DNA from: Cafeteria roenbergensis
Lineage: Eukaryota > Sar > Bigyra > Bicosoecida > Cafeteriaceae
DNA length: 64,000 nucleotides
Assembly: GCA_008330645.1 (NCBI GenBank)
Contig: VLTN01000006.1
Span: forward strand, 558,001-622,000
Reading direction: 5' to 3'
Under the pieces are notes generated by a model. It saw only the letters and a program-made list of their open reading frames with translations. It had not been told where the DNA came from and made no database searches. Positions within the stretch are counted from its first letter, which is position 1; each line of letters starts with the position of its first letter. Shown piece by piece: positions 1 through 47,627 of this stretch. The translations under genes were made by a program, and so were the position numbers.

Positions 1-1456
1 GGGGCGCAACGGAGGAAGCGAACATCGTGCCGCCGGCACCGCCAGCAGCGGCCCTCGGGCTGGCTGAGGACAGCAGGGACGCCGACGTCGGTTGCGCCGC
101 CGCCGCGGCGCCCAGCGGGGAGGCCTGGATGGAGGCTCGCGCCTGGGCGAGCGCCGCCTCGAGGCTGGCCAAAGGGGCGCCCGCGCCCTCGAGGGCGGTC
201 CTGGCAGCGGCGGCCACGGCTTCGAGGGCGCGGAGCGCTGCGGCTCTGCCCTCGTCGCGGGTCCAGTCCAGAGCCCTGCCGAGGTTGTTTGTGCGGCGCT
301 CGACCTCCAGGTCGTCCAGCGCGGGGCTGGGCCCGCTGCCCGCCGACAGCACGGCCGAGAGGGAGGTGGGGGGCACTGCCGCGACAGCTGCAGGGCACGG
401 GGCAGCTGACGCCGGGGAAGGGGGAGCGGGGTCCACGGGGCGGGGGGCTTGTGCTGCAGAAGACGCCGGGGCGGCCGCGCTGGCTGGCTGAGAGAGGGCG
501 TCGTCTGGCGGCGCGGCGCGGCGCGCCTGCGCGAGCAAGCGGTCCTCAGCTGCCCTGCGGGTCGCAGCGCGGCGGAAAGGAATGCGGGGGAAAGGCGGAG
601 TGGACCGATCGCGAGGGCGCGAAGCAGCCGCGAGCGCTCGTGAGCTGCACTTGCCCGCGTGCTGCGGGCTGCCCAAAGCCAGGCCTCACCGGGTGGCGCT
701 GCGCTCGATTTCCAGCTCCCGGCCCATGCGGTTGGCCACAAACTCGCTCTCTGCCTCCTTGGCGAGCACAACGGCGGCTGTCGTGCGCTGCGCGGTGTCC
801 AGAAGCTGCTCTTGCCGCTCGAGGGCAGCGCCCTCGGCCTTGACTGCGGCCTCGAGCCTCGCGTTCTCGGCCTCCACGCGCTCCAACTTGCTCATCAACT
901 GCGCGGCACGCGAGTCAGGGCAACGCGCAGTCGATTGCGGATGCTTGCCCGCCGCGGCGACGCGCGCGGGGAGGCGGCGGCGGGGTCAACGTGCTTGCGG
1001 TCAGGCACTCCCCAACACACTCGCGTGTCATTGTGACATGGATCGGCCCGCGCGGCAAGCCGTGGGCTGGGCCTCCCGCCGTCCCAGGAGCCACGCCCCA
1101 CTGCCAGCCGTGCGCACCGCCCCAGCTTCGCAGGACCGGAGGCCGACGCGAACCGCCGGTTCGGCCGCGCTTCGGGAATGTTGCGGAAAACTAGCAACCC
1201 CTGCAGCGGCTTTCAGCCTCACCTTGCCGGTGAGCTTCTCCTCCTCCGCCTCGGTGGCCGCAGCAAGGCGCTCCATGCGGTCCTTCATATCTGCCAGCAT
1301 CGCCTGCTGCTGGGCCGCCAAGGCTCGCTCCTCCTGCAACTCTCTCGACAGGCGCGCCACCGCATGTTCTGCGGACTCGCCCTCCTCCTGCGCCACGACT
1401 GGCGGCCGCTCGCCAGTCGAGGAGGCCCGCACACGCTGGGGCGACCGCTGAGCCAT
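1..1456 (-). CDS. Coiled-coil protein, 3' part beyond the window edge
   Basis: Unrecognised gene, read from three exons: 1456-1223, 898-690 and 554 to the window edge. The joins keep frame: AAG|GTGAGG to CGCAG|TTG in phase 0, then CCCG|GTGAGG to CGCAG|GG in phase 2. The start is the ATG at 1456. About 332 codons are visible and no stop is reached. Residues ~25-160 are rich in Glu, Ala, Arg and Leu with heptad-like spacing (for example LSRELQEERALAAQQQAML and LERVEAENARLEAAVKAEG), which predicts a coiled coil. A Pro/Ala/Ser-rich linker follows, then a second helical stretch around LDDLEVERRTNNLGRALDW. No catalytic motif is seen. It diverges from the SPATA17-like gene across 195 bp. A cytoskeletal role is only a guess from that neighbour. 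Confidence 0.6.
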
Positions 1457-1651
1457 GGCCCCGGGCCCGATCGCGGGTTGTGGGTGCAAACTCAGGCCGC
1501 CCTGCCGCGCCCCTCCCGCCGCCCCAAGCCACGCACAGCCCAACCAGTGCGGCTCTGCCGCAATCGCGCCCCGCCGCCTCCGGCAGCCCCCGCGGCGCCG
1601 CCACCCCGGGCCAGGACCAGCGCACGCAGGCCGCGCGACCCGGGCCCCGGC
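1457..1651. promoter_or_regulatory. Divergent spacer, presumed shared promoter
   Basis: These 195 bases separate the ATG codons of the coiled-coil gene (-) and the SPATA17-like gene (+). Both promoters and 5' UTRs must fit here, which suggests one shared control region. I recognise no TATA box or other core element. Confidence 0.45.
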
Positions 1652-3760
1652 ATGGCCGAGTTCCTGTGCCTCTGGGCCGAGCGAGATGCATTTATCGACC
1701 GCCTTCGGGAGGAGCAGCGGTGAGCCGTTCGCTTGCCGGCTTGCCGCCCCGCGCGGCGGCTCCAGCGCGATGCCGCCGGCCTGGCCCGGTCGCGCCTCCC
1801 TCGATGCACAGTTTCTGGCCACCGAGCGAGGACGGAAGCAGGGGTGCCGTGCCTGCGCTTTCGGGCAGCTTCGCGCAGTGCTGGCCGACCGCAACGCAAC
1901 TGCGCTCGCGCCGCACCGGCCGCCCGGCGCCGTGCGGACGCGCGCGAGCCCCCGTCCACTAGCCCGCGTCTTGTGGATTGCGTCGCTGTCTGCCGTCAAC
2001 TGAGCGCAGGGAGGCCGACGCTGCCGCGGAGAAGGAGGCCGCTGCCGCAGTGGTGCTGCAGCGCAACTGGCGCGGAGCCGTCACCCGCGACAACATCACC
2101 ACGCAGCTGTGAGCCTGGCCCCAGTGCGCCGCCGTGCAACATCCGCTTCGAGGAGCAGTTGGGGCTGGCGTCCGCTCCCGCCCCCGCCCCCTGTCGCCGT
2201 TCGGCTCTTGGCCGCCCAGCGGCGTGTGCAGCCACCGCACGGCGGCGCCCGGCCGCCTCGTCCCCACTCGCCAGCCGCCGCTGCGCGCGTCGGAGCCAAC
2301 CATTTTCCGTTTCCGCCCCCCTGCTGCCGCCCGCGTCTCGCAGTTTCGCGTGCCTCCTCGTGCAGCGGGTGTTCCGGGGCCACAGCGGGCGCCGCATCGT
2401 CGAAAAGCGCCGGGCCCTCGTCGCCCGCGAGCAGGAGCGCGCCCGCCTGGCCTTCGTCGCCACGCAGGTCCAGCGCATTGTCCGCGGCTTCCTCAGCCGG
2501 CGCCTTTTACTCAACTTCTACAAGCGCCGGGAGAAGGTACAACAGCGCCACGAGGCAGGCCTTCGCCTCAGGGAGGAGACGCAGCGGCGGCTTGAGCAGC
2601 AGGTCGAGCAGAAGCGCGACGAGGCAGAGACCCGCGCCAGGAAGGCCTTCGCCAAGGCGTCGGAGGGGCTCCACCATCTGGTCTCCACCAGGGCGCAGCC
2701 TGGAATCTACAACCCTCCCTACGCCGCATCCCCCGCTGACATCCCCTCGGCCTTCAACGTCCCCCTGGAGACGCACCTGCGGGACGGGTCTCGCCGCTTC
2801 ATCCGCACGAGAGGCCTGTCCTCGCAGCGCTGGCCCCGCCCGCTGAGCCGCTCCGAGGCCACGGCAGTGCGAGCAGTCAAGGAGGTTGGCGGCGAAACCG
2901 CCGTTCGGGCGTTGAAGCGCGACATCGAGGCCCTGGAGGCGGCAGGAACGCTGAAGCCCCTCCGCCCGGGGCGGTCGCAGCTTCCGCGCACCGTGGGCAA
3001 GCTGGAGCCAGCGGTGGAGATGGCGGTGACGGGGGGGGGAGCTGTCTCGGGGGCGGGAGCGACCGGCGTGCATGGGGCTGTTGCCGCTGCAGCCACGGAC
3101 CTGGACGAGGAGCGCGAGCTGGAGGCCGCGGCGGGCATGCACGGTTTTGAGGCAGTTGCCGCGCGCTCGCTGAGGCGCCAGAGGGCGGCAGTGCCGAGCA
3201 AGTCGGGCGGCGCGCAGGCCGACCGCCCCCCTCCGTTCGTGGACAACCCGCGCTCCCTGCAGGCGTCGGCCCCGTACGGCATCGAGGCGGCCAGGGAGAG
3301 AGAGGAGGCTCGGTACAGGCGGTTGGCAGAGCTGTCGGCGACGCCCTTTGCGGCTGGGGGAAAGGTGAAGGAGCCGAAGCGGCCGCTGGGCGTTGCGGCC
3401 GGCGCGCCGTACGACGAGCCCTGGAAGGCTGCCCGGTCCACTCGCGAGCTGGAGCACACGGCGGAGGCCAAGGCGCTGCGCGTGGCGCCGCAGGCCTTCG
3501 TGTCCACGGCCGGGCGGGTGGACTCGTTCGAGGCGTCGGAGCGGCTCAGAGCGTCCGGCCGCGTGCCATCCTCGCAGGCGTGGGTCACGGCTGGCCAGGG
3601 CACTGGCGGGCAGCCGGGGGCGAGCCTGCGGCGGAGCGGGAAGCTGCCGCCAGCCAAGCCGGCGAGGGGCGGCAGCGCAAGCGGCAAGAGGCGGAGCGGG
3701 GCGGCAGGAGGCGGAGCGGCTGCCGTGCGAGCGCTGCAAGCCAGCAGAGGCAACGGGTGA
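1652..3760 (+). CDS. SPATA17: SPATA17-like IQ-motif protein
   Basis: Three exons, 1652-1719, 2010-2108 and 2344-3760, give 527 residues. The joins are CAGCG|GTGAGC to CGCAG|GGAG and CAGCT|GTGAGC to CGCAG|TTTC, and both keep frame. Three IQ-type calmodulin-binding motifs lie near residues 36-50 (VVLQRNWRGAVTR), 60-75 (LLVQRVFRGHSGRR) and 96-110 (VQRIVRGFLSRR). A basic helix follows, then HHLVSTRAQPGIYNPPY, with PGIYN at 175-179. Human SPATA17 has the same order of IQ motifs, helix and a LLSTKQIPGIYNSPF-like segment. That protein is tied to sperm and motile cilia and binds calmodulin. The C-terminal ~300 residues are Ala/Gly/Arg-rich and have no counterpart that I recognise. Family assignment is good; an axonemal role is inferred from the family. 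Confidence 0.8.
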
Positions 3761-4056
3761 TGATTGCGTGCGCCCCGCGTAGCGTGCCAGTGCGCGACTG
3801 CAGCGGAGCGAGGCAGAGCGGCGGGCACGAGGAATCGCTGCTTGGACTGCCACCACTGGCAGGGCGGGCAACGCAGCGCGCCGCACGATGGCGGGCGCAA
3901 ACGAAACATCACGCAGAAACGCAAGCAGCACCTCACGCAGAGGCGGGGCAGTGCCGGACACAGAGCGGCTTCCGGCCAAGCCTGGCCACCAAACACACTT
4001 AGCACACTCAGGCGGGGCTGTGGAACAGACCCGCAAGCGGATCGAGGCGACGGCGA
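3761..4056. other. Convergent spacer
   Basis: Tail-to-tail spacer between the SPATA17-like and aspartic-protease genes, which must hold both 3' UTRs. I see no poly(A) signal of the AATAAA type and no coding potential. Confidence 0.5.
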
Positions 4057-6650
4057 TCATTGCATGTACCCGCCCACAGCGTCGCTGATCTCGTCCTCCG
4101 TGAGGCCCATCCCAGCGTCGCCAAGTACAGGCGCAGGGTTGCTGAAGCCGTACAAGTCGCCTCCCATCATCATCGGGTTGGCCTGCGCATCGTCCGCGGC
4201 CTGCGCCTCCGAGGCGCGCTCCAGGGCTTGCTCGGCCGCAATAGCCTCCTCCTCGGTCGTCGGCATTGCCTCCATCTCCGGCTCCTGGGCAGCCTTGTGG
4301 TGGGCCTTGTGGAGCGTCTTCGAGGCCGCCTTGCTCGCCACAGCAGCCTTTTGGGCGTGCTTGTGGTGGGAGCCCGCCCCGGCCTTGTGCCCGTGCTTGT
4401 GGCTGGCACGCGAGCTCGCGGTAGAGCTCACACCCACGAACTTGGTGTCTGTGTTGCGCTCCACGCTCTTCTTTGCCGCCTCCTCCTCGGCCTTCTTCTT
4501 TGCCGCCTCCTCCTCGGCCTTCTTCTTGGCCGCCTCCTCCTCGGCCTTCTTCTTTGCCGCCTCCTCCTCGGCCTTCTTCTTGGCCGCCTCCTCCTCGGCC
4601 TTCTTCTTGGCCGCCGCCTTCTCCTCCTCCTCCTCGTCCTCCTCGTCCTCGTCCTCCTCGTCCTTGTCCTCTGCATCCTCGTCCGCCTTGTCCTGCTCCT
4701 CCTCCTCGCCGTCAGGGTGGCCCTTGTCCGCGCTGTGGCCGTGGTCAGTGCCCACCGTCTTGCCGTTCTTCTCGTGCGTGGACCGCGCGAAGCCAACACG
4801 GTCGTGGTCACGGTCGAAGACGGTGTAGTGGGTGCGGAGGAGGACCTGCCCGAGGGTCCAAATGCTGTCCTTATCGGGGGCGATGCCGCTGACACACTCC
4901 TTGATGCAGCGGCTGGACTCGACGTCGTCAGCGTCCGGGTGCTCCGCCGCGAGCTTGTTGCACTCCTCCTCCGGCACGCCTGCGGCGGGCACGCGGAAGA
5001 TGAGGGCGTAGTCCTCGGGCGTCATGGTGACCCGCACATCGGGGTTGTCCGCGCCGCCAAAGAGCACCAGGGTCACCGAGGGCATGGTGGCCAGGAGGGA
5101 GCAGGAGGAGGTTTGCACGTCGCGGAGCTCCTGCTGGACCATGTCCTCGGGCCCGTACATGAGGTAGGTGCCCGTGTCGACGATGGCGCGGCACATGCCG
5201 TCGGCCTCGCTGTCGCAGACGTTGGTGGCGTACTTCTGGCCGTCAGGGTAGGAGAGCTCAACGTTCTTGAGGCCGAGGGTCCAGTAGCCGCGGTTGATGA
5301 CGGCGGCCCACTGCAGAGTCTCGCCATCGACAATGTAGTCGGTGTCGATGTCGCCGAAGGTGACCATGCCGCCGGTGGGGCCGATGAAGTAGCCGAAGAC
5401 GTTGCGGTGCAGGAGGCGGTCGTTGATGATGGTGTCGAACACAGGGGACACGCCCTCGCGGCTGAGGTCCGAGTTGGGGTACGCAAGGCCCATGATGCCG
5501 CCCCACTTCACCTGCATAAGGAGGGGCACGTCGATCTCCTCCGCCACGCCGACCGTCTGGTACTCGACCACCAGGTTTCCGATCTTGAGCCGCGCCTGGC
5601 GCAGGGGGCCCTTCACGCCGCCCGAGAGGTAGTTGATGACCATGTTCGCGGGGAGGGGGTTGCCTGTGCTGCCCAGGTTGCGCTCCGATGGGCTCCGGTC
5701 GTCCTCGTTGGCCGAGGCGTCGAACTTGGCGTGGAGCTCGCACACGGGGTCCTTGCAGTCCTTGGAGGGCACCCAGAACTCGCAGCTTCCCGTGTCGAAC
5801 AGAAGGTCGAAGTCCTTGGTGGCGGCGCCGGAGCCGAGGGTCACGCGGCCGTAGTAGGTGGCAAGGCGCTTGCGGGTGAGGATCTGGGCCTTGAGGGTCA
5901 CGTCCTCGCCGTCGTGGTGCGCCTCCTGCGCCCAGCCGCCGGCCAGCTCGCGGAAGCCCTGAACCGCAGACGAAGCGGTCTTTGAGAGCCACGTGGAGAA
6001 GCCGGCGCGGGCGCCGGCCTGGGCGTGGGCGAAGCGCGGCCCGAGCGCGTCCTCCGACAGGCCACCGCGGAGCTGGCCCTGGGCGGCCGTCTGCCGCGCC
6101 GTGCGTGCGCGCAAGCTCGCCGGGTTGTGAGCCGCACGAACAGCCTGCTCGCTGTGGCGCTGGAAGCGACGCGGAACCGCGTCCGAGTGCGACTGGCGCT
6201 GCACGTAGATGGGCCGCTGGTCCTCCTCCTCGTTCCAGAGACCGTGCTGCGCCCACCGAAGCTCCTGAAGCAGCGCCGTCCGCGTCTGCTTGTCCAGGGT
6301 CCCCTTCACGAGGGGCACGCTGCGCGTGGCAAGGGGCGGCAAACGGAGGACGCGGCAGCAGGCGTGAGAGCGGGAGGGCGAGCGGGACGCGGCAGCAGGC
6401 GTTGCCGACGCGAGGCACGCCGGCCGGAGCGCCGCCGCGGCCCGGAGCGCCCCGCCACAGCGCACGCAGATGCTCACCTGAACGATCTCTCCTGCTTGGG
6501 ACCGAAGCCGTGGCGCTGGGCACCGGCGCTCGCGCCAAGGTCGGCGCTAGCTGCTGAGCGCCTGCGCGAGGCGTCGGCCTCGGCAGCCTGCGCCCCGCAC
6601 AGCACCGCGGCCGCCAAGGCGACGGCCAAGACGGAGCGCGCTCCCTTCAT
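4057..6650 (-). CDS. Secreted pepsin-like aspartic protease with charged C-terminal tail
   Basis: Two exons, 6650-6478 and 6319-4057, give 811 residues. The join TTCAG|GTGAGC to CGCAG|CGTG rebuilds a Ser codon. Exon 1 supplies a clear signal peptide (MKGARSVLAVALAAAVLCG) that the longest single open frame lacks, which is why I start here. A long prosegment runs to about residue 205. The A1 protease domain carries the two catalytic triads at Asp233 (FDTGSCEFWVPS) and Asp439 (AIVDTGTYLMYGP), so it should be active. It continues to WTLGQVLLRTHYTVFDRDHDRVGFA, the usual end of the family. About 220 extra residues follow: an acidic block, nine-residue Lys/Glu repeats near 627-675, a His/Lys/Ala-rich stretch and an acidic Ala-rich end. 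Cathepsin D/E-like in kind; probably lysosomal or secreted. Confidence 0.88.
4469..4615 (-). repeat. 27-bp coding tandem repeat in the protease tail
   Basis: One partial and four full 27-bp units, followed by another partial unit, encode the nine-residue repeat AAKKKAEEE in the protease tail. Units differ mainly at one position (tttgcc versus ttggcc). The period preserves frame, so copy-number change would lengthen or shorten the tail without breaking the gene. Confidence 0.85.
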
Positions 6651-6945
6651 CCTGCCGCGTCAAAGGCTCAACCCCTGCTCGGGCCCTGGCCTAAGGGCGG
6701 GTGGCTCCGTGCGGCGCGCTGCCCGCTCCGGCAGAGCCCCCTGGCTCGCAAACCTGCGGCTTGCGCGGACGTCGCTCGCTGCCGGGGGTTAGGTCAGTCA
6801 GGCCGGCGGTTGCCACCCGTTTGCAGCGCGATGGCCAGACGGCCTGACCAGCCGGAGTGCCGGCTCGCGCAGCGTCTGCGCGGCCCAGGACGCAGCGCCC
6901 ACGGGCACCTGGCAGTCGGCGCGGCCTGCGGGGCAGCCGGCAGCA
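6651..6945. promoter_or_regulatory. Divergent spacer, presumed shared promoter
   Basis: These 295 bases lie between the ATG of the aspartic protease (-) and that of the kinase-like gene (+). Open frames cross it but look like GC-rich background. No core promoter motif was recognised. Confidence 0.4.
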
Positions 6946-9900
6946 ATGGCCGACTGGCTCTTCAGCGGGCCGGCGGGAGCCAAGCCCTCGCGGGGCACCA
7001 CGGTGGCGACGTACGGCCGCAGGCGCAGGGCGCCGCCCGCGCCCGCGGCCAGCTCGGAGCGCGCGGCCGCTGGGGGGCGCCGCCCCGCCCTAGCGACTGC
7101 GAGCACAAACGTGCTGCCTTGTGACAGCGAAGCGGGCGGCCGCTCGCTTCTCAAGCGGGAGCCCGCGCGGCGAGCAGCCTCGCGGGCAGTTGCCCCGGAC
7201 TCGCCCCAACCCGCAGCAGCGCCCCACGCGGCGAACGAGGCCGAAGCTGCTGCGGTGCCGCTTGAAGACGGCGCTGTACCCTCCTCGCCCGAGCCGGCTT
7301 CGGCTCCGAGGCCTGCCCGCGCATTGCGGGCAAGGAGGGCAACGCAGCGTTCCAGCGTCGCGCAAGCGACGCGGACTCGAAGGGGAGGCACGGCGTCCGC
7401 TGCCGCCGGCACCGGCGCTGCATCCATTGATTCCCTGCCCAGGCGCGCTGCGGGCGCGCCTCGGGCGCACGCGCTCGGGGTCGAGGCAACAACGCCCGTG
7501 GCCTCGCGAGCTCCCGGCCCTGCCTCGGCCGCGGCCTCCAGGGACTCGCTGGACACGCCCTCGCCAATGCTGGGAAAGCGCCAGCCAGTTGAGCAACTCG
7601 GCGCGGCCAGCCCCACTGACGCCACTCCGGAGGCCACGCGCGGCCCTGTGCGAGCGCTGCACCGCATCGCTGCGTCGCCCAGCAGCAGCCCCGTGTCCTC
7701 CCCCAACAGTGTGGGCCGGAACTCGGATGCCTTGACGTGCTCGCCCGCACCCTCGCTGCTGTCTCTGGCCTCGTCGGCCGGCGAAGGGCGCGCAAAGCTG
7801 GTCGTCCCGTCTCCCCTCTCGAGCCCCGCGGCAGGAGCGGGGGTGGCGAGGGCGAGCCAGCCGCGCTCGCGCGTCTCGCTGGGGGGAAGCTCCTTGGCCT
7901 CATCCCGCCCGTCGCCCGCCCCGTCCTCCCGGCGGCGCTCCACCGGCTCTCTTCGCTCGGGAGGCGGGGCGCCCAAGGCCGCGGGGTCGGGCCTGATGAG
8001 CTGGATCGCGTCTCTCACGTCCATCGGAGCCTCCTCGGGAGTGACCGCCTACGTGCCTGGGCGCGGCTGGCAGCCTCGCACTGCGACCGGGGCCGCTGGT
8101 GCTCCCCACGGGCAGGCTGCCGGCCCTGACGGTGCCGCGGCTCGCAAAGGGAAGAAGCGAGGCATCCTCAAGGCGCGCCTCGCCCGCGCAGTCCACGCTC
8201 GCCGCAGCGTCTTCCCAGGAGGGGAGATTGCCACCGACGCCGCGTCGCTTGCGACTTCTGCTGGCGCTGGTGCAGAGGCTGCTCCGGTGACCACGTCTGG
8301 GATCTCAGCGGGCGGCGCAAGACTGCACCCGACGCCAGACGCAGCCAGCCGTCGAAGGTCGCTCGCGCACCGCGGTGCCACTGCCTTGCATGCACAGCCG
8401 CGGGACCGCGACAGCGTCGGCTCGCTAGCGTCCCTCCTGTCAACGGACAGCGTCGGCTCTCTCGGTCCAGCAGACGCGTCGGCACCGTCCCCTGCAGCAC
8501 GTCCGGCGCCCGCTGCGCCCCGTCGTTCGCGCCTTGGAGCTGGTGGCGTGGCCAGCGATTCGCTGGGCGACGCTTCCGCCGGCACGCCCGCAGCCTGCTC
8601 CGACTCGTCGTCCGACGAGGACGAGGACGAGTTCGTGCAGGGCATTGAGGCCGTCAAGGCCGCCCTCGCGGGCAGGAGGCCGATCCCCGAGCCGGCCAGC
8701 CGCTCCTCCGTGTCGTCGGTCGCTCGCGTGTCCATCATGGGCGCGGGGCGTCGCAGCGTGATGTTCCGCCGAGTGACTCGCTCGCAGAGCAGGGCCATGG
8801 AGAAAGCCAAGGCCGCAGCGTCTCAGGCAGCGCCTGCAACGGCGCTCGCCAGGGCCAAGGAAGCGGGGCTGGCTCGCTCCGCGGCCACCAGCAAGTCGAA
8901 GCAGCCAGCTGCGGCTGCGGCGCCGAGCGGCAAGTCTGCAGATGTTGCCGCGTCTGCCGGAGCCCCTGCTGCCCCCGGCGAGGTGCCTCGTGCGCGGCCC
9001 CGCGCCCCCGCGCCGCTCTCACGCGACCTCTTGGCGCTGCGGCAGATGCGGCGCGTGTCAATGGGCGTGGCGGCCATGGGAGGCGCCCTGGGCGGCGCCC
9101 GGAGCCTGCTGGCCGCCGAGGGCGCGACGGACCCTCTGGCGCGTGCCCGTGCATCCTTTGGAGGGCATCCCAAGCGAGTGGCCCTGCCGGGCATGGCCAG
9201 CGGGCGGACCTCCCCCAAGGGCGCCGATGTGCCTCCAGCTGGACCGCTCCCGGGCGCAGCAGCAAGCGGGGCCGGTGTGGGCGTGTCCGCAGAGCTTCGT
9301 TCCGCCCTAGCTCGCCGGAAGGAGCGGATCTCCGAGGGGAGCGAGAGCGGTCGGCTTGCAGGCGTCATCGAAGAGGAAGACGAGGAGGAGGAGGAGGAGG
9401 AGGAGGGGGGGGTCGACAACGGTGACGACCACGGCCGCAGCGCTGAGGCAGGGGGCGCTGATGCGTCCGGTACCGCAGGCGCACATGCATCCACCCCAGG
9501 GACGCGACGCTCAGCAGCGGCCTCGCGGCGCAAGCGCGCAGCCGAGCCGTCGTCAGGAGCTGGCGAGACCGCCGCGGCCGCGAATCTGGAGGGCCGCGAG
9601 GCGGAGAAGGATGAGACTTCCGAGGCCAAGGCTGCGGCAAAGGGGCTGGTTGAGGGCTCGACGCGAAGTGCGGGGCAGCTCGAGGCGGTGTTGCCTCTGG
9701 TGCTGGAGTGGGTCGCGGCATCGGAATTGATGGGGCCCCTGCCACTGGTGAGCCGCGCGTGGTCGCGAGCTGCCGCCGCAGCCTTCAACTGGCGCTCGGC
9801 GGAGGTAAGCGAGGAGGTGGTGGACGAGGAGGACGTCATCGAGGGCCCGGAAGAGGACGAGGAGGCCTCTGAGGAGGAGGCTGTGCGCAGGGTACTGCAG

Positions 9901-12207
9901 GCAAGGGCGGACGAGGCGCGCGCAGCCGACGGCACCGTCACCCTCAGCGGAATCAGGCTTGCCGTGCCCCTCATCAGCAGCCACGCCGCGTTCCACAAGG
10001 CCCACCCCTGGGGCGCCTTTCTGTCCGAGGGCGCATACAAGAAGGTCTACGCCGTTTGGAACAAGGCGCTTGGCCGGCGCGAGGCCGTCTCCGTGATGGA
10101 CGTTGAGGCCATTGCAGACGCCGGTGCGTGCGACGTAGTCAGAGCGGAGGTTCGCTGTGCCTGCCTGGTCAGCGAGCTGGTGCGCACTGGCGTGTGCCCC
10201 AACTTTGTTCAGACGTTCCAGGTGCTTGCAACGTCGTTTGAGCCGTCGGAGGCCCTGTGGGGCACCGAACACTGTCGCCTTCCCAGAGGCCCACTGTCAG
10301 CCGCGGCGCTGCGCTGGGCCAGCGACAGCCCGGGACCGTCCGACTTCCGGCTGCCAGTGCCGGCAGGTCCGGATGGCAAGGCGTTTCCGAACCCCAACGC
10401 TGTGGACCTGGGCGTGTTCCAGCTGGCCCGGATGGAGCTTTGCTCAGGAGGCGATGTGGAGGAGCACCTGCGCTCCATCGAGCCGCTCGTTGCCGCCGTG
10501 GAGCAGGCCGAGATGGCCGCCGCCGCTGGGGAGGCACCCGCTTCGGCCAGTGGACAGAAGGCGAAGAAGCGCGGCTCCTCGGGGCGACGCGGGAGCGGCA
10601 GCGGCAGGACGCGAGCCAGCGGTGAATCGCCGCCTGACTCTCCGTTGGAGGTTGACAGGTGGTTCATGGGCACGGCCCAGGCGGCAGCAGGAGCCGCCAG
10701 CACCCCTGGAAGCGGCGCCCTTGGCCTCATCGCGCAGCTGTTGGCCTCGCTGCTGGCCGCACGGGACCGGCTGTGCATGCGACACTGGGATGTGAAGCTG
10801 CTCAACTGCCTGCTGATGCCTTCGGACGCCGTGCGCCCGGGCCCGCGCGCAGCCGGCGCCGCCGCCCGAGGCGGGCCAGCGCCCAGCGTCCTGGCCGCGG
10901 AGAGTGATCCAGCCCTCGGGCAGCTCGCGGGCGCCTCGACGTCGCGCTCCCTCGCGGGCGCAGAGCAGCTGGACGGGGTGGTGCTGCGCTACGGAACTCG
11001 CGGGGGCGCGCAGCCGGCGGCGACAGCGGCCCGCCAGCACGCGGCCAACGGGGGAGCCGGCGCGGCAGAGACGGAGACCTCGTCGCTGGTGGTGGCCCTG
11101 CCCCGCTCTGAGCGGGCCGCGCTTCCGCGAGGCTGGCTGCTGGCCAGGGCCTCCGAGGGAGGGAGCGTCGATGAGTCTGTCAGCGCGGCCCGCCTCCAGC
11201 TGGCTGCCCAGCCTGGCTTCGTGCTGAAGCTGGCGGACTTTGGCACGGCGGACACGCGCGAGGCGTCCCTTGGCCACCCTGTGCGCGCCAGGCACGTGAC
11301 AACCCTCGAGAACACGGCTCTGGACCTGCTGGTGATGGGCGACTCGACCAAGCAGGACTTCCACGCCGACTCGTGGGCCGCTGGGCTGTGCGTACTACAC
11401 CTGCTGACGGGAGCCGCGCCGTACGAGGAAGTGCTCGAGGAGGTCACGTGCCCCGCCCCGCTGCGCAAGGCGCTCTATGACGCGTGGACTGGCCGAACGT
11501 GGGGACGGAGGAAGCGGCCAGCCGCTGAGCCAGGCTTTGCTGCCCTTGAGCCGGTGCTGAGGGAGGACGAGGAGGACGGCACTTTGGCCGACACGCTGGC
11601 CCGGATCGTGGTCCTGTTCGGCCTTCCAGGGGCAGGCAACGACCAGGCATCGGGGTGCGCCGTGCCGGCACATCTGTGGACGGAAGAGGATGCCGCCGAG
11701 TGGGGTGCGCCTTCGCCCCCTCCGCTCGAGGCCCCGGAAGCGTTTAGCAAGTCGGTCGTGTGGAGGACGCTGCAGCAGTGGCTGGGCCCTGTTGACGCGG
11801 CCCGCAGTGGCGGGCCCGCCAAGCGGACCTCGACGCGCGCCCGTCGCCCAACCGCCCGCTCTCGGTCTGGGATGAAGGCCAGCTCGGCGGACGCAGACGG
11901 CGAGGCCGTGCGCGCGTGGTTCAAAGCTTCGCAGGAGCGGTTCAACGTGTGGGTCGGAAACCACGGGTTGATGCAGCGGGCGCGCAGGCGCATGGCCGCG
12001 GCGCCTGGCACCGCAGCGCTGCTGTGGGCACTATGCCAGTTTGACCCGGAGAAGCGGCCGCGTGCTTCTGACCTGCTTGCCGGCTCGGCGGCCTTGGAGC
12101 CGCTGCGGCAGGCAGGCCTGCCGGGCGGGGCGGCCGCGGCATCGCTCGCTTCGTACGGCGAGGTTTCGCTTCCGGCACTGGCGTGCCCGACGCGAGACGA
12201 TGTGTGA
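6946..12207 (+). CDS. Giant divergent protein-kinase-like protein with F-box-like segment
   Basis: A single open frame of 1,753 residues. The first ~900 are low-complexity Ser/Ala/Arg/Pro, probably disordered. Residues ~910-945 (VLPLVLEWVAASELMGPL, then PLVSRAWSRAA) resemble an F-box. The kinase-like domain spans ~1010-1620. It has a Gly loop (EGAYKKVYAV, from 1028), a catalytic loop HWDVKLLN at 1280-1287 in place of HRDxKxxN, and DFG at 1431-1433. Where the VAIK lysine is expected (1047-1051) the sequence is AVSVM, with no Lys. APE is replaced by ENTALDLL, then DSWAAGLCVLHLLTG follows, as in subdomain IX. About 140 extra residues sit between the catalytic loop and DFG. Either a WNK-like relocated Lys or a pseudokinase is possible. 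Target unknown. I cannot exclude in-frame introns in the insertion. Confidence 0.72.
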   Translation: MADWLFSGPAGAKPSRGTTVATYGRRRRAPPAPAASSERAAAGGRRPALATASTNVLPCDSEAGGRSLLKREPARRAASRAVAPDSPQPAAAPHAANEAEAAAVPLEDGAVPSSPEPASAPRPARALRARRATQRSSVAQATRTRRGGTASAAAGTGAASIDSLPRRAAGAPRAHALGVEATTPVASRAPGPASAAASRDSLDTPSPMLGKRQPVEQLGAASPTDATPEATRGPVRALHRIAASPSSSPVSSPNSVGRNSDALTCSPAPSLLSLASSAGEGRAKLVVPSPLSSPAAGAGVARASQPRSRVSLGGSSLASSRPSPAPSSRRRSTGSLRSGGGAPKAAGSGLMSWIASLTSIGASSGVTAYVPGRGWQPRTATGAAGAPHGQAAGPDGAAARKGKKRGILKARLARAVHARRSVFPGGEIATDAASLATSAGAGAEAAPVTTSGISAGGARLHPTPDAASRRRSLAHRGATALHAQPRDRDSVGSLASLLSTDSVGSLGPADASAPSPAARPAPAAPRRSRLGAGGVASDSLGDASAGTPAACSDSSSDEDEDEFVQGIEAVKAALAGRRPIPEPASRSSVSSVARVSIMGAGRRSVMFRRVTRSQSRAMEKAKAAASQAAPATALARAKEAGLARSAATSKSKQPAAAAAPSGKSADVAASAGAPAAPGEVPRARPRAPAPLSRDLLALRQMRRVSMGVAAMGGALGGARSLLAAEGATDPLARARASFGGHPKRVALPGMASGRTSPKGADVPPAGPLPGAAASGAGVGVSAELRSALARRKERISEGSESGRLAGVIEEEDEEEEEEEEGGVDNGDDHGRSAEAGGADASGTAGAHASTPGTRRSAAASRRKRAAEPSSGAGETAAAANLEGREAEKDETSEAKAAAKGLVEGSTRSAGQLEAVLPLVLEWVAASELMGPLPLVSRAWSRAAAAAFNWRSAEVSEEVVDEEDVIEGPEEDEEASEEEAVRRVLQARADEARAADGTVTLSGIRLAVPLISSHAAFHKAHPWGAFLSEGAYKKVYAVWNKALGRREAVSVMDVEAIADAGACDVVRAEVRCACLVSELVRTGVCPNFVQTFQVLATSFEPSEALWGTEHCRLPRGPLSAAALRWASDSPGPSDFRLPVPAGPDGKAFPNPNAVDLGVFQLARMELCSGGDVEEHLRSIEPLVAAVEQAEMAAAAGEAPASASGQKAKKRGSSGRRGSGSGRTRASGESPPDSPLEVDRWFMGTAQAAAGAASTPGSGALGLIAQLLASLLAARDRLCMRHWDVKLLNCLLMPSDAVRPGPRAAGAAARGGPAPSVLAAESDPALGQLAGASTSRSLAGAEQLDGVVLRYGTRGGAQPAATAARQHAANGGAGAAETETSSLVVALPRSERAALPRGWLLARASEGGSVDESVSAARLQLAAQPGFVLKLADFGTADTREASLGHPVRARHVTTLENTALDLLVMGDSTKQDFHADSWAAGLCVLHLLTGAAPYEEVLEEVTCPAPLRKALYDAWTGRTWGRRKRPAAEPGFAALEPVLREDEEDGTLADTLARIVVLFGLPGAGNDQASGCAVPAHLWTEEDAAEWGAPSPPPLEAPEAFSKSVVWRTLQQWLGPVDAARSGGPAKRTSTRARRPTARSRSGMKASSADADGEAVRAWFKASQERFNVWVGNHGLMQRARRRMAAAPGTAALLWALCQFDPEKRPRASDLLAGSAALEPLRQAGLPGGAAAASLASYGEVSLPALACPTRDDV

Positions 12208-24014: not shown

Positions 24015-24301
24015 AGCAGGCGAGCCGCCAGATCGCGTACCCCGCGGGATCGCCACCGTCGTGACCTGCCACGCCACCCCTCAACGACCCGCCCGGAAGC
24101 TCCTTCCCAAAGCACACAGCGCTCTGGCTGCACTCTCCCAAACGACGAGAAAAACGCTCACAGTGGAAGAAGCTGTCTTCCGGAGGCCGTGTCGAGGCGA
24201 CCAGTGACGCGGGAAACAGACCCGAGTGGGCGCGTGCGGGGCGTGGGCGGCAGGCGGTGTGTGTTCCCGGCGCCGGGGACCAAAAAGAGCAAAAGAACAA
24301 G

Positions 24302-24374
24302 TACTCGAACCGGGTCTCGATCCCGGGACTTCCACATTATCAGTGTGACGCGCTACCGACTGTGCCATCCGAGC
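24302..24374 (-). tRNA. tRNA-Ile(GAT)-like gene, array copy 1
   Basis: 73 nt fold as a full cloverleaf. The acceptor stem is 7 bp (GCTCGGA with TTCGAGT, G1-U72 a wobble). The D arm has G18G19. The anticodon stem TCACA/TGTGG closes loop CTGATAA, giving anticodon GAT (Ile, ATC codons). The T arm is CCGGG/CCCGG. Discriminator is A73. The A box (TGGCACAGTCGG) fits the consensus and the B box (GGATCGAGACC) has one deviation, A54 for T54. The D stem has one A12-C23 mismatch. T runs for Pol III termination follow on the minus strand (24294-24291 and 24286-24282). Function is plausible but unproven. A nuclear GAT anticodon for Ile is unusual. Confidence 0.75.
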
Positions 24375-24938
24375 AGATTGGCAGACGTCAAAATTCTGAC
24401 AATCCAGTGCGTACCATCCGGAGCAAGCCAGCGCCGCAAACGGAGCAACACACTCCCCTGCCAGTGGACACGCCACCGGGCGAGGGACGCGCCACGCGCC
24501 CCCCCCCCCCCCCCCCACACGCCCCGACAGGCACTGGTCGCCTGGCACTCACCCCTGCCGCGGGTGTGCCTGTGCCGGGGCGGCAGCCGGGCGCGAAACC
24601 TGCTCCGGTGGCTCGACCGAGCGCGGGGGGCGCCGTACCCGCTGCTGGTGCTGGTGTTGCCGCCGCCCGTGGTCGGCAGGGCCCGGGGGCGGGCGGGGCC
24701 CATGCTCCCCTGGCTGTGCGACGGGGGAGCGGGCCCGCCCTGGACAGAGTCGACGGCGAGCGGGCGGCATTTGCTGCCGCCGATGCGCGCAGCAGTGGTT
24801 CCGCGTGCGGCCTTCACTGGGGGGCGTGTCGAGGCGACCAGTGACGCGGGAAATAGACCCGAGTGGGCGCGTGCGGGGCGTGGGCGGCAGGCGGTGTGTG
24901 TTCCCGGCGCCGGGGGCCAAAAAGAGCAAAAGAACAAG

Positions 24939-25011
24939 TACTCGAACCGGGTCTCGATCCCGGGACTTCCACATTATCAGTGTGACGCGCTACCGACTGT
25001 GCCATCCGAGC
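24939..25011 (-). tRNA. tRNA-Ile(GAT)-like gene, array copy 2
   Basis: Identical over its 73 nt to copy 1, including the A12-C23 mismatch, A54 and the downstream T runs. It is 637 bases from copy 1. Confidence 0.75.
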
Positions 25012-25573
25012 AGATTGGCAGACGTCAAAATTCTGACAATCCAGTGCGTACCATCCGGAGCAAGCCAGCGCCGCAAACGGAGCAACACACTCCCCTGCCA
25101 GTGGACACGCCACCGGGCGAGGGACGCGCCACGCGCCCCCCCCCCTCCACACGCCCCGACAGGCACTGGTCGCCTGGCACTCACCCCTGCCGCGGGTGTG
25201 CCTGTGCCGGGGCGGCAGCCGGGCGCGAAACCTGCTCCGGTGGCTCGACCGAGCGCGGGGGGCGCCGTACCCGCTGCTGGTGCTGGTGTTGCCGCCGCCC
25301 GTGGTCGGCAGGGCCCGGGGGCGGGCGGGGCCCATGCTCCCCTGGCTGTGCGACGGGGGAGCGGGCCCGCCCTGGACAGAGTCGACGGCGAGCGGGCGGC
25401 ATTTGCTGCCGCCGATGCGCGCAGCAGTGGTTCCGCGTGCGGCCTTCACTGGGGGGGGGCGTGCCGATGCGACGAGTGACGCGGGAAATAGACCCGAGTG
25501 GGCGCGTGCGGGGCGTGGGCGGCAGGCGGTGTGTGTTCCCGGCGCCGGGGGCCAAAAAGAGCAAAAGAACAAG

Positions 25574-25646
25574 TACTCGAACCGGGTCTCGATCCCGGGA
25601 CTTCCACATTATCAGTGTGACGCGCTACCGACTGTGCCATCCGAGC
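25574..25646 (-). tRNA. tRNA-Ile(GAT)-like gene, array copy 3
   Basis: Identical over its 73 nt to copies 1 and 2, 635 bases from copy 2. Its unit has a few private changes outside the tRNA (for example catgccaccg for cacgccaccg), so the tRNA is more conserved than its flanks. Confidence 0.75.
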
Positions 25647-26209
25647 AGATTGGCAGACGTCAAAATTCTGACAATCCAGTGCGTACCATCCGGAGCAAGC
25701 CAGCGCCGCAAACGGAGCAACGCACTCCCCTGCCGGTGGACATGCCACCGGGCGAGGGACGCGCCACGCGCCCCCCCCCCCCCTCCACACGCCCCGACAG
25801 GCACTGGTCGCCTGGCACTCACCCCTGCCGCGGGTGTGCCTGTGCCGGGGCGGCAGCCGGGCGTGAAACCTGCTCCGGTGGCTCGACTGAGCGCGGGGGG
25901 CGCCGTACCCGCTGCTGGTGCTGGTGTTGCCGCCGCCCGTGGTCGGCAGGGCCCGGGGGCGGGCGGGGCCCATGCTCCCCTGGCTGTGCGACGGGGGAGC
26001 GGGCCCGCCCTGGACAGAGTCGACGGCGAGCGGGCGGCATTTGCTGCCGCCGATGCGCGCAGCAGTGGTTCCGCGTGCGGCCTTCACTGGGGGGTCGTGT
26101 CGAGGCGACGAGTGACGCGGGAAATAGACCCGAGTGGGCGCGTGCGGGGCGTGGGCGGCAGGCGGTGTGTGTTCCCGGCGCCGGGGGCCAAAAAGAGCAA
26201 AAGAACAAG

Positions 26210-26282
26210 TACTCGAACCGGGTCTCGATCCCGGGACTTCCACATTATCAGTGTGACGCGCTACCGACTGTGCCATCCGAGC
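26210..26282 (-). tRNA. tRNA-Ile(GAT)-like gene, array copy 4
   Basis: Identical over its 73 nt to the other three copies, although this unit is truncated and more diverged at its right end. Confidence 0.75.
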
Positions 26283-26746
26283 AGATTGGCAGACGTCAAA
26301 ATTCTGACAATCCAGTGCGTACCATCCGGAGCAAGCCAGCGCCGCAAACGGAGCAACACACTCCCCTGCCAGTGGACACGCCACCGGGCGAGGGACGCGC
26401 CACGCGCCCCCCCCCCTCCACACGCCCCGACAGGCACTGGTCGCCTGGCACTCACCCCTGCCGCGGGTGTGCCTGTGCCGGGGCGGCAGCCGGGCGTGAA
26501 ACCTGCTCCGGTGGCTCAACTTAGCGCGGGGGAGCGCCGTGCCCGCTGCTGGTGCTGGTGTTGCCGCCGCCCGTGGTCGGCAGGGCCCGGGGATGGGCGG
26601 GGCCCATGCTCCCCTGGCTGTGCGATGAGGGAGCGGGCCCGCCATGGATGGTGTCGAGAATTGCTCGGTCCACGCAGCACAACTTTTTGTTGCCGAGCCG
26701 CAGTCGGAATATACCTCTCAAGCTCCAGCGCAACAAAGGCTTAAAA

Positions 26747-26819
26747 CACTCCAACTGGGTCTCGGCCCCGGGACTTTCACACTTTCAGTGTGACGTGCAA
26801 TCGAATGAGCCATCCGAGC
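26747..26819 (-). pseudogene. Diverged tRNA-like copy with anticodon GAA
   Basis: A 73-nt relative of the array tRNAs shares the acceptor 5' strand GCTCGGA, the anticodon stem start and the AAGTCCCGGG segment. Its anticodon loop is CTGAAAG, giving GAA (Phe). The D stem (GCTC/GCAC) has two mismatches, the G18G19 pair is lost, the T stem and acceptor each have one mismatch and position 73 is G. A TTTT run follows directly (26746-26743). The unit around it no longer resembles the array. It is probably a decayed older copy; a functional tRNA-Phe is unlikely. Confidence 0.6.
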
Positions 26820-45233: not shown

Positions 45234-47627
45234 ATGGCCGCTTCGAACGCAGAGGCCGAAGCCTTCAAGGCACAGGGCAATGCCGCTCTGAGCGCCCAGA
45301 AGTTCGACGAGGCCGCCGACCTGTACACCAAGGTGAGAGCGTCCTCGGGAACGCTGCCAGCGCCGCGCTCGCCGACGCGCTCGATCGCCGCCGATGGCCC
45401 CACTCGCCCGCCCGCTGCGGGGGCGGTGGTCTGAGAGCTGCGTGCTTGGGTTTTGCAGCGAGCGGCGGCGGCGGCGGCCTGAGCAGCGAGCGGGCCCAGT
45501 CGCCGCGAAGCTGCCGCGTGGCTCTGTCTGCAAAACGGGAACCACGTGGCCTGCGCTTCCCGCCGAGGGCCGGCCGCGCGGGCCGGGCCCTCGGGTGCCT
45601 CCGCATCGCGCGCGTGCCACGCGTTGATCCCCGCGATCGCATGCAAAGCTGCTGACGAGGGCGCTCGCTTCGCGCTCGCGCGCGCTCCGTCTGACTCCCT
45701 TGGCGCGCTCTTTCCGCACCCGCTGAGCTGCTGCAGGCCATCGAGCTGGATCCATCCAACCACGTGTATTTCTCCAACCGGTCTGCGGCCTACTTGTCCG
45801 CTGGCAACGGCGCCAAGGCCCTTGAGGACGCGGAGGCTTGCATTGCCGCCAACCCCACCTGGGCCAAGGGCTTCAGCCGCAAGGGCGCGGCGCTCCACAA
45901 GCTCCAGCGCCTCCCCGAGGCGGTTGCTGCGTTCGAGCAGGGCCTCACTATCGACCCATCCAACGCGGCGCTCAAGTCGGGTCTCGAAGACGTCAAGCGC
46001 GCAATGGCGGCCAACCCCTTCTCCGACATTGTCGCTTGGTGCTCGACGCAGCCCCGCTTCGCTGCGCACATGAGCGACCCGGCCTTTGTGTCCCGCCTGA
46101 AGCTGCTCTCGGGAGGCCCCCAGATGCTGAGCACCATCGGCGACGACCCCCGCATCATGGAGGTGATCGGCGCGCGCCTCGGCATCGACCTCAGCGGCGC
46201 TGGAGGCCCCCCAGGCGGGGCTGCTGGCCCGGGTCCCAGTGACGGCAAGACCGCTGCCGAGCGCGAGGCAGAGGCCAAGGCCAAGAAGGAGGCTGAGGAG
46301 CGTGCGGCGGAGGAGGCTGCCCGTGCCGAGGCGGAGGCGGGCATGACGGAGGAGGAGCGCGCGGAGCTGGAGGCGGAGCGCAAGGCCAAGGCGGAGGCGG
46401 AGGCGAAGAAGGCAGAAGCTGACAAGGCAAAGGACGAGGGCAACACCTTCTACAAGGCGCGCAAGTTCGGTGAGGTCCTGCCCAGCAGTTCTCCCGCGCC
46501 CCCCCCCCCCCGCCTGCTCGCAACCTCACACTCACACACACACACATTCCCCCTCCCCCCCACCTCCCTCTCTCTCCCTGTCTCTCTCGTTCTGCGTGGA
46601 GGGTTCCTCTGCACCGCCTGCCGCCTCCCACCGTCTTGCGTCCTTCGCCTCGCCTTCCGCTCGCCCCCTCCCCGCAGACGAGGCCGTGGCCTGCTACGAC
46701 CGTGCCATTGCCATGGTTCCCGAGGAGGTGACCTACAAGCTGAACAAGGCGGCGGCGATCTTCGAGGCGGGCGACTCTGACGGCTGTGTGGCCCTTTGCG
46801 AGGAGGTGGTGGAGACCGCCCGCGGCCAGCGGCCCATCCCCTGGGCCAAGATCGCCAAGGCCTTTGCGCGCATGGCAGCTGTCAAGCAGCGGGCGGGCGA
46901 CATCGCCGGGGCGATCGACCTGTACGAGAAGGCCCAGGCGGAGTCCGCCTCCGCGCCAATCGACAGGCGCATCAAGCAGCTCCGCAAGCAGCTGGCAGAG
47001 AAGGAGGCCCTCGACTACCTTGACGCGGAGAAGGGCAAGGAGGCCAAGGAGCGCGGCAACGAGGCGTTCAAGAGCTGCAACTTTACCGATGCGATTGACC
47101 ACTACAGCGAGGCCATTCGCCGGGACCCGGAGAACCCGATTTACTGGACCAACCGCGCCACGGCCAAGTGCAAGGTGATGGACTTTGGCGGGGCGCTCGA
47201 CGACTCCGTCAAGGCCATCAAGATCGACCCCAGCTATGCCAAGGCCTATGCCCGCAAGGCGCGCATCGAGATGTTCTCCAAGCTCTTCCACAAGGCGCTC
47301 GACACTGTCATGGAGGGACTCTCCAAGGACGAGGACAACGTGGAGCTGCGCCAGGTCAACACTGAGCTCCAGGCAAAGATCCAGGCCGCCATGTACGCCC
47401 CGCCCGACCCGGAGAGGCAAGAGCGCGCCATGCAGGACCCCGAGATTGCCGGAATTATGCGCGACCCCATGACCCAGCAGGCTCTGCGCGACCTTGGCAC
47501 CGACCCGTCGGCAATGAGCCGCATCATGTCTGACCCCGGCATGAGCCTGAAGCTGAACCGCCTGATCCTCGCGGGTGTGGTGTCCTTTGGCGGCCCAGGC
47601 GCTGCGCGCGGTGGCGATGACGAGTGA
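45234..47627 (+). CDS. STIP1: HSP70/HSP90 organising co-chaperone STI1 (HOP)
   Basis: Three exons, 45234-45332, 45737-46469 and 46678-47627, give 593 residues. The joins AAG|GTGAGA to TGCAG|GCC and TTCG|GTGAGG to CGCAG|ACG each restore a TPR helix (FDEAADLYTK to AIELDPSN, and ARKF to DEAVACYDRAI). The domain order is that of STI1/HOP. TPR1 (from FKAQGNAAL), DP1 (MAANPFSDIVAWCSTQPR, with a DDPRIMEVIG helix) and a Lys/Glu/Ala linker come first. TPR2A (AKDEGNTFYKARKF), TPR2B (AKERGNEAFKSCNF) and DP2 (MQDPEIAGIMRDPMTQQAL) follow. The Lys/Asn carboxylate-clamp residues of the TPRs are present. It passes clients from Hsp70 to Hsp90 in the cytosol. Human HOP is 543 residues. Confidence 0.94.
46498..46600. 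repeat. Poly-C / (CA)n / (CT)n tract in STI1 intron 2
   Basis: The 208-bp intron (46470-46677) holds a C run, a short (CA)n run near 46530-46546 and a C/T-only stretch with (CT)n. On the transcript it acts as a long polypyrimidine tract before the CCCCGCAG acceptor. Confidence 0.8.

Follow-up and report, generated by a model that had tools for sequence, protein, structure and literature searches.

The window, that is, the whole 64 kb stretch of DNA analysed here, contains four tRNA-Ile(GAT) genes according to ARAGORN, all on the minus strand and each carried by one unit of a head-to-tail array spanning positions 24182 to 26657. The unit borders were placed from BLAST self-matches, combined with alignment, and define the minus-strand units U1 (24182-24818, 637 bp), U2 (24819-25453, 635 bp), U3 (25454-26089, 636 bp) and U4 (26090-26657, 568 bp). 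The unit-to-unit matches have an E value of 0.0, so the repeat is not due to chance. Three of the four units are complete; U4 is truncated, with some 68 columns missing from one end (the first 68 columns of the alignment). Pairwise identities range from 96.75% (U1 with U4) to 99.35% (U1 with U2). The left-hand units U1, U2 and U3 are the most alike, and U4, at the right edge, is the most diverged (96.75%–97.29% identity with the other three). The locus is a tandem tRNA array, with near-identical units arranged head-to-tail. An earlier note on this DNA had described four tandem units of about 636 bp; the number and the tandem arrangement hold, with the corrections that only three units have their full length and that the tRNAs lie on the minus strand.

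The tRNA genes are located at 24302-24374 in U1, 24939-25011 in U2, 25574-25646 in U3 and 26210-26282 in U4 (in the ARAGORN calls, 24301-24374, 24938-25011, 25573-25646 and 26209-26282, respectively). They are 73 nt long, letter-identical in the BLAST self-comparison, and each of them matches the Rfam family RF00005 with 54.1 bits, bearing out the claim that every unit contains the same GAT cloverleaf. Apart from the four units and a decayed relic described below, BLAST did not reveal any other copy of the unit or of the tRNA in the 64 kb window. Each unit also contains a weak plus-strand Rfam match to a Hac1/Xbp1-type bZIP intron (24520-24582, 25152-25214, 25790-25852 and 26423-26485), with 27.6 bits for a cut-off of 41. 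The folds of the U1 copy of this match on the two strands, with z-scores of −0.81 and −0.73, are no better than those of shuffled sequences; we therefore treat this as a chance match, probably favoured by the high GC content. Rfam matches to CDKN2B-AS and plastid ycf2 are also below their cut-offs.

In the U1 copy, the A box (tRNA positions 8-19) is at 24356-24367 and the B box (positions 52-62) at 24313-24323, both on the minus strand; they were read from the sequence by the consensus for these boxes. The B box is near-canonical, with an A instead of a T at position 54. Two T runs follow directly 3' of the tRNA, four T's at 24291-24294 and five at 24282-24286 (minus strand). They are alike in all four units and terminator-like, and presumably serve as Pol III terminators. 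The A box and T runs are thus as the earlier note had them, and its B box departs from the canonical form at one base. In the cloverleaf, 20 of the 21 pairs are formed, the exception being A12-C23, which is mismatched in the D stem, and ten of the 11 conserved bases checked are kept, the exception being A54; the GG of the D-loop is also present. At the acceptor end, the Rfam alignment places a G1-U72 wobble pair. The variable loop has five nucleotides. The anticodon loop reads CTGATAA, and the combination of GAU with A37 and A73 is that of an Ile tRNA.

The main eukaryotic reference for judging this tRNA was NZVC01000054.1, a contig of 12 kb (1-12017) picked up by a relaxed pattern search and filed under the bacterial metagenome-assembled genome (MAG) Maritimibacter sp. 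NAT7. It carries 69 tRNAs by ARAGORN, many of whose anticodons are of the nuclear ANN type, and a 5S rRNA; it is apparently a misbinned, remarkably dense eukaryotic nuclear tRNA/5S cluster. The 54.1 bits of the array tRNAs (gathering score 29) fall within the range of 52.2-73.5 of 45 reference tRNAs from the first 8 kb of this contig, three of which have 54.1 bits or less; this range omits two Val(AAC) genes called by ARAGORN and includes two Tyr-like genes that it passed over. In the fold comparison, 29 of 47 reference tRNAs were used, with eight dropped because the fixed layout misplaced their anticodon and ten because they were too long. The cloverleaf of the array tRNA is 3.2 kcal/mol above the minimum, compared to 0-5.7 for the 29 references, and its energy of −18.9 kcal/mol is weaker than that of any of them. 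When folded freely, the tRNA takes a minimum-energy form other than the cloverleaf, no better than the folds of shuffled sequences (z −0.08). Some eukaryotic cytosolic tRNAs have A54, and here it is present in two of the 29 references, Met at 4262 and Ala(AGC) at 3020. Score and structure suggest a plausible working tRNA, at the weak end. By its covariance score, its cloverleaf and conserved positions, and its A and B boxes followed by a T run, it is a predicted nuclear tRNA, supporting the eukaryotic type proposed before. An initiator character, for which A54 and A60 might be cited (PMC10602860), was discarded because Ala(AGC) of NZVC01000054.1 also carries A54.

The same weakness would be expected if the array were a cluster of tRNA-derived repeats or pseudogenes, SINE- or satellite-like with a tRNA head, without use in translation and with identical tRNAs only because the units are young. 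The seed of a tRNA-derived repeat family was also among the possibilities raised in the earlier note. We give this explanation substantial weight, but doubt it more than we believe it. The low-end covariance score, the D-stem mismatch, the cloverleaf energy (weakest of 30) and the shuffle-like free fold all agree with it. So does the closeness of the units: they differ by only 0.65%–3.25%, so that identity of the tRNAs proves little, and a change-free tRNA alone has a P of 0.046. Among 620 compared columns, 24 are variable (21 columns, at the start and in a G run, were left out, and U4 is absent from the first 68); 17 of these 24, counted over 24182-26657, are transitions. In favour of a working tRNA, none of the 24 falls in an invariant run of 170 columns, which takes in the tRNA, its T runs and 75 columns of the 5' flank. 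In 100,000 random placements, such a run covered the tRNA in 0.231% and a run of that length occurred anywhere in 0.945%, values for a block that was noticed first and then tested; gene conversion could be an alternative source of it. Against a repeat or pseudogene cluster, the A box, the T runs and ten of the 11 checked conserved positions are intact in all four copies, and, the four units and the relic apart, BLAST of the 64 kb window found no dispersed copies of the unit or tRNA. In cattle, eight tRNAs with unusual anticodons are outside the high-confidence set and likely non-functional or SINE-derived (PMC10763252), and in S. mansoni 2,342 of 2,368 tRNA-Gln(TTG)-like calls are classed as SINEs (PMC2770079).

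Beyond U4, on the minus strand at 26747-26819, lies a fifth, decayed tRNA-like copy that the count of four in the earlier note had missed. It has 60 of its 73 letters in common with the array tRNA and carries GAA at the anticodon position. Its score of 15.9 bits is below the tRNA family cut-off; it lacks the GG of the D-loop, A21, T54 and T55, and keeps 17 of the 21 pairs. When aligned to the array tRNA, its score was equalled by none of 1000 shuffles. The flanks, in which similarity was sought as for an in-register fifth unit, did not give a convincing match to the array units, with scores equalled by 447 (global) and 474 (local) of 1000 shuffles for the 5' flank, and by 40 (global) and 316 (local) for the 3' flank. 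A decayed copy adjoining the array is what a pseudogene cluster might contain, but the confinement of the likeness to the tRNA suggests a past constraint on the tRNA itself, arguing against that explanation.

To which isotype the array tRNA body belongs was assessed by comparison with 78 tRNAs: 47 from the first 8 kb of NZVC01000054.1, 24 from the rest of this contig, five from viral contigs and two from E. coli. The nearest is Phe(GAA), with 71.6% identity, followed by the viral Asn (68.5%); the nuclear Ile(AAT) has 62.2% and the E. coli Ile(GAT) gene ileV 54.1%. With the anticodon loop removed, for the 51 of 78 tRNAs comparable in this way, the values are 71.6% for Phe, 66.7% for Asn and 64.7% for Ile(AAT). 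An Ile-type body outside the anticodon loop was thus not found in what is essentially one eukaryotic reference set, and by this identity measure the body is not Ile-like, which is also compatible with a tRNA-derived repeat. The five cross-lineage tRNAs from the viral contigs (four Met, one Asn) served as a control. All four Met were nearest to Met of NZVC01000054.1 (71.2%–76.7%), but for the Asn tRNA the closest match was Arg (76.7%), ahead of Asn (75.3%); the method can therefore miss.

Within these limits, a tRNA of another identity probably acquired its GAT anticodon by a shift. The leading candidate for the ancestor, judged against essentially one eukaryotic reference set, would be a Phe(GAA) tRNA changed at position 36, as the body resembles Phe more than Ile and GAA is the anticodon of the adjacent relic. 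The body of the relic is nearest to Asn, not Phe, and this, together with the single reference set, reduces the Phe ancestry to a best guess. An elongator-Met ancestry, suggested by a resemblance, was the first lead; it was dropped because the Met tRNAs, with 59.5%–64.9% identity, are below Phe and Asn in the full comparison. In the viral contig collection, a pattern with anticodon bases 35 and 36 fixed as A and T found four tRNAs, all Met(CAT), but only NAT anticodons could match it. An anticodon-free pattern found the same four Met plus one Asn(GTT) in the viral contigs, and two Met sites, on one contig, in the genome contig collection. Neither the exact 44-nt core nor the exact T arm of the array tRNA had a match in the viral contig collection, two relaxed patterns had none either, and neither had an Ile(AAT)-type pattern, so an Ile control could not be taken from there. 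The Asn(GTT) gene is at 4924-4996 of a 175 kb viral contig and has ten of 11 compared D-arm letters in common with the array tRNA.

GAT is a normal Ile anticodon in bacteria and organelles (PMC8007984 for a mitochondrial case; the E. coli annotation for bacteria), and the array might thus derive from a tRNA-Ile(GAT) that reached the nucleus as a copy from an organelle or a bacterium. A bacterial Ile(GAT) was sought in 19 of 30 loci and nine further stretches of the Maritimibacter sp. NAT7 contigs, where there was none, and E. coli ileV was therefore used. As the sole bacterial Ile(GAT) compared, and a proxy for the host organelle tRNA, it has only the 54.1% identity given above, with 46 of the 78 tRNAs closer to the array tRNA. 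The only Rfam match with an organelle label, to plastid ycf2, is sub-threshold (22.5 bits, cut-off 65.7) and on the strand opposite to the tRNA. The A54 shared with two of the 29 reference tRNAs, a trait that some eukaryotic cytosolic tRNAs have, also speaks against such a transfer. An organelle origin is disfavoured by these sequence comparisons, and a copied organelle or bacterial gene appears extremely unlikely.

The window has a GC content of 70.5% and contains Pfam matches to an aspartyl protease, a CLC channel, NUDIX, HOP/STI1 repeats, LETM1 with EF hands, a Fumble-type pantothenate kinase, TmcB repeats and DnaJ. A GT-AG intron of 208 nt interrupts the HOP-like gene (46470-46677), with the exon junction judged by eye. 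These Pfam-backed eukaryotic genes and the intron identify the window as nuclear eukaryotic DNA, supporting the nuclear context claimed earlier; the statement that the array sits between spliced nuclear genes is borne out for this one intron, the sole one checked. The aspartyl protease frame contains, in its 3' part, a 27-bp repeat in seven copies (4467-4655), which encode an AEEEAAKKK-type repeat. A long open frame on the minus strand (52125-58091) contains the TmcB-type TPR repeats and adjoins the LETM1/EF-hand gene.

Around the array itself, coding-like signal is sparse, and none of the five long frames over or next to it has a Pfam match. This would suit a locus retained mainly for a role as a chromatin boundary (insulator) and only secondarily for decoding, an idea also raised in the earlier note, as would the example of the human tRNA tandem repeat at 1q23.3, whose GC-rich units bind CTCF and which was proposed to be a boundary element (PMC4041453). 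Like the array described here, the human repeat consists of GC-rich tandem units in which the tRNA is more conserved than the rest; it differs in having 7.3-kb units in 9-43 copies and CTCF binding, compared to four copies of a 0.64-kb unit. In the array sequence, nothing speaks specifically for an insulator, and we consider this explanation very improbable.

In six Pfam-anchored stretches of the window, the Ile codons are ATC in 103 cases, ATT in 12 and ATA in none. With AUC accounting for 103 of 115, demand matches the GAU anticodon. The new decoding role put forward in the earlier note is not needed, as G34 pairs with AUC by ordinary rules. A further possibility is that the expressed tRNA receives not Ile but another amino acid, for example Phe, leading to misreading of some AUC codons. 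The body, nearest to Phe(GAA), is in its favour; on the other hand, the array tRNA has a U at position 36, whereas recognition as Phe is expected to require A36, and with AUC as the dominant Ile codon misreading would be costly. The nematode nev-tRNA-Ile(UAU) undergoes maturation and accepts Leu in vitro, but mistranslation by nev-tRNAs was not detectable in C. elegans (PMC4300185). Mischarging of the array tRNA is, we think, very unlikely.

For many of these features parallels have been described. According to a review of over 60 eukaryotes, GAU is absent from Eukarya (PMC8007984), in line with the premise of the earlier note that GAT is unusual in nuclei; the premise has exceptions, as a tRNA-Ile-GAT is reported in S. 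mansoni (PMC2770079) and in T. vaginalis Ile-GAT is given as a parent of tRNA fragments (PMC7844918). These tRNAs share the unusual anticodon with the array tRNA, and the excerpts describing them do not place them in a tandem array, unlike the genes reported here. Alloacceptor shifts are documented in 31 cases, 30 of them eukaryotic (PMC3923123). They likewise combine a body of one identity with the anticodon of another, but were detected by synteny in related species, while the shift proposed here is deduced from similarity and a neighbouring relic.

Tandem arrays of tRNA genes are known as well (PMC2888827, PMC4041453, PMC2652664). Those of Entamoeba (PMC2652664, PMC2888827) consist, as here, of head-to-tail tRNA-bearing units in a nuclear genome; they differ in that a unit can contain as many as five tRNA genes separated by short tandem repeats and in that the arrays make up more than 10% of the genome, compared to four units with one tRNA each in our case. 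The nematode nev-tRNAs (PMC4300185) show that a tRNA with a deviant body can be matured; like the array tRNA, they are nuclear and can have an Ile anticodon, but they have a long variable arm instead of a 5-nt variable loop. Eukaryotic Ile(GAT) tRNAs, anticodon shifts and tandem tRNA arrays have thus each been reported already. A tandem Ile(GAT) array was not found in a literature search on nuclear Ile-GAT, which does not prove its absence.

Taking the evidence together, we lean towards a small array of anticodon-shifted nuclear tRNA genes of Pol III type, arranged in tandem, multiplied by unequal exchange and expressed to read AUC, a reading we hold to be probable, if only just. The anticodon would have come about by a shift, with Phe(GAA) changed to GAU through position 36 as the candidate route. 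A unit of about 636 bp with a single tRNA gene would then have been multiplied by unequal crossover, with an older tRNA relic, since decayed, left beyond U4. Each copy would be transcribed by Pol III, trimmed and provided with CCA, and the product may receive Ile by virtue of its G34-A35-U36 anticodon and A37. The charged tRNA would read AUC and, through wobble, also AUU, in addition to the usual inosine-bearing Ile tRNA. A stronger claim is that the mutual exclusion of A34 and G34 Ile tRNAs has been broken here, with a Phe-type tRNA remoulded to GAU, amplified in tandem and carrying much of the AUC decoding of a GC-rich genome, possibly replacing the inosine-34 tRNA; this we regard as unlikely.

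If the array is expressed, it would be a natural case in which to study why eukaryotes avoid GAU. It would also raise the questions of whether the Ile enzyme charges a remoulded tRNA correctly, and whether growth in copy number of a G34 tRNA follows a strong AUC bias. If it is not expressed, it would caution against taking odd nuclear anticodons from tRNA finders at face value, since a drifting tRNA gene that has recently been duplicated in tandem can give rise to such calls.
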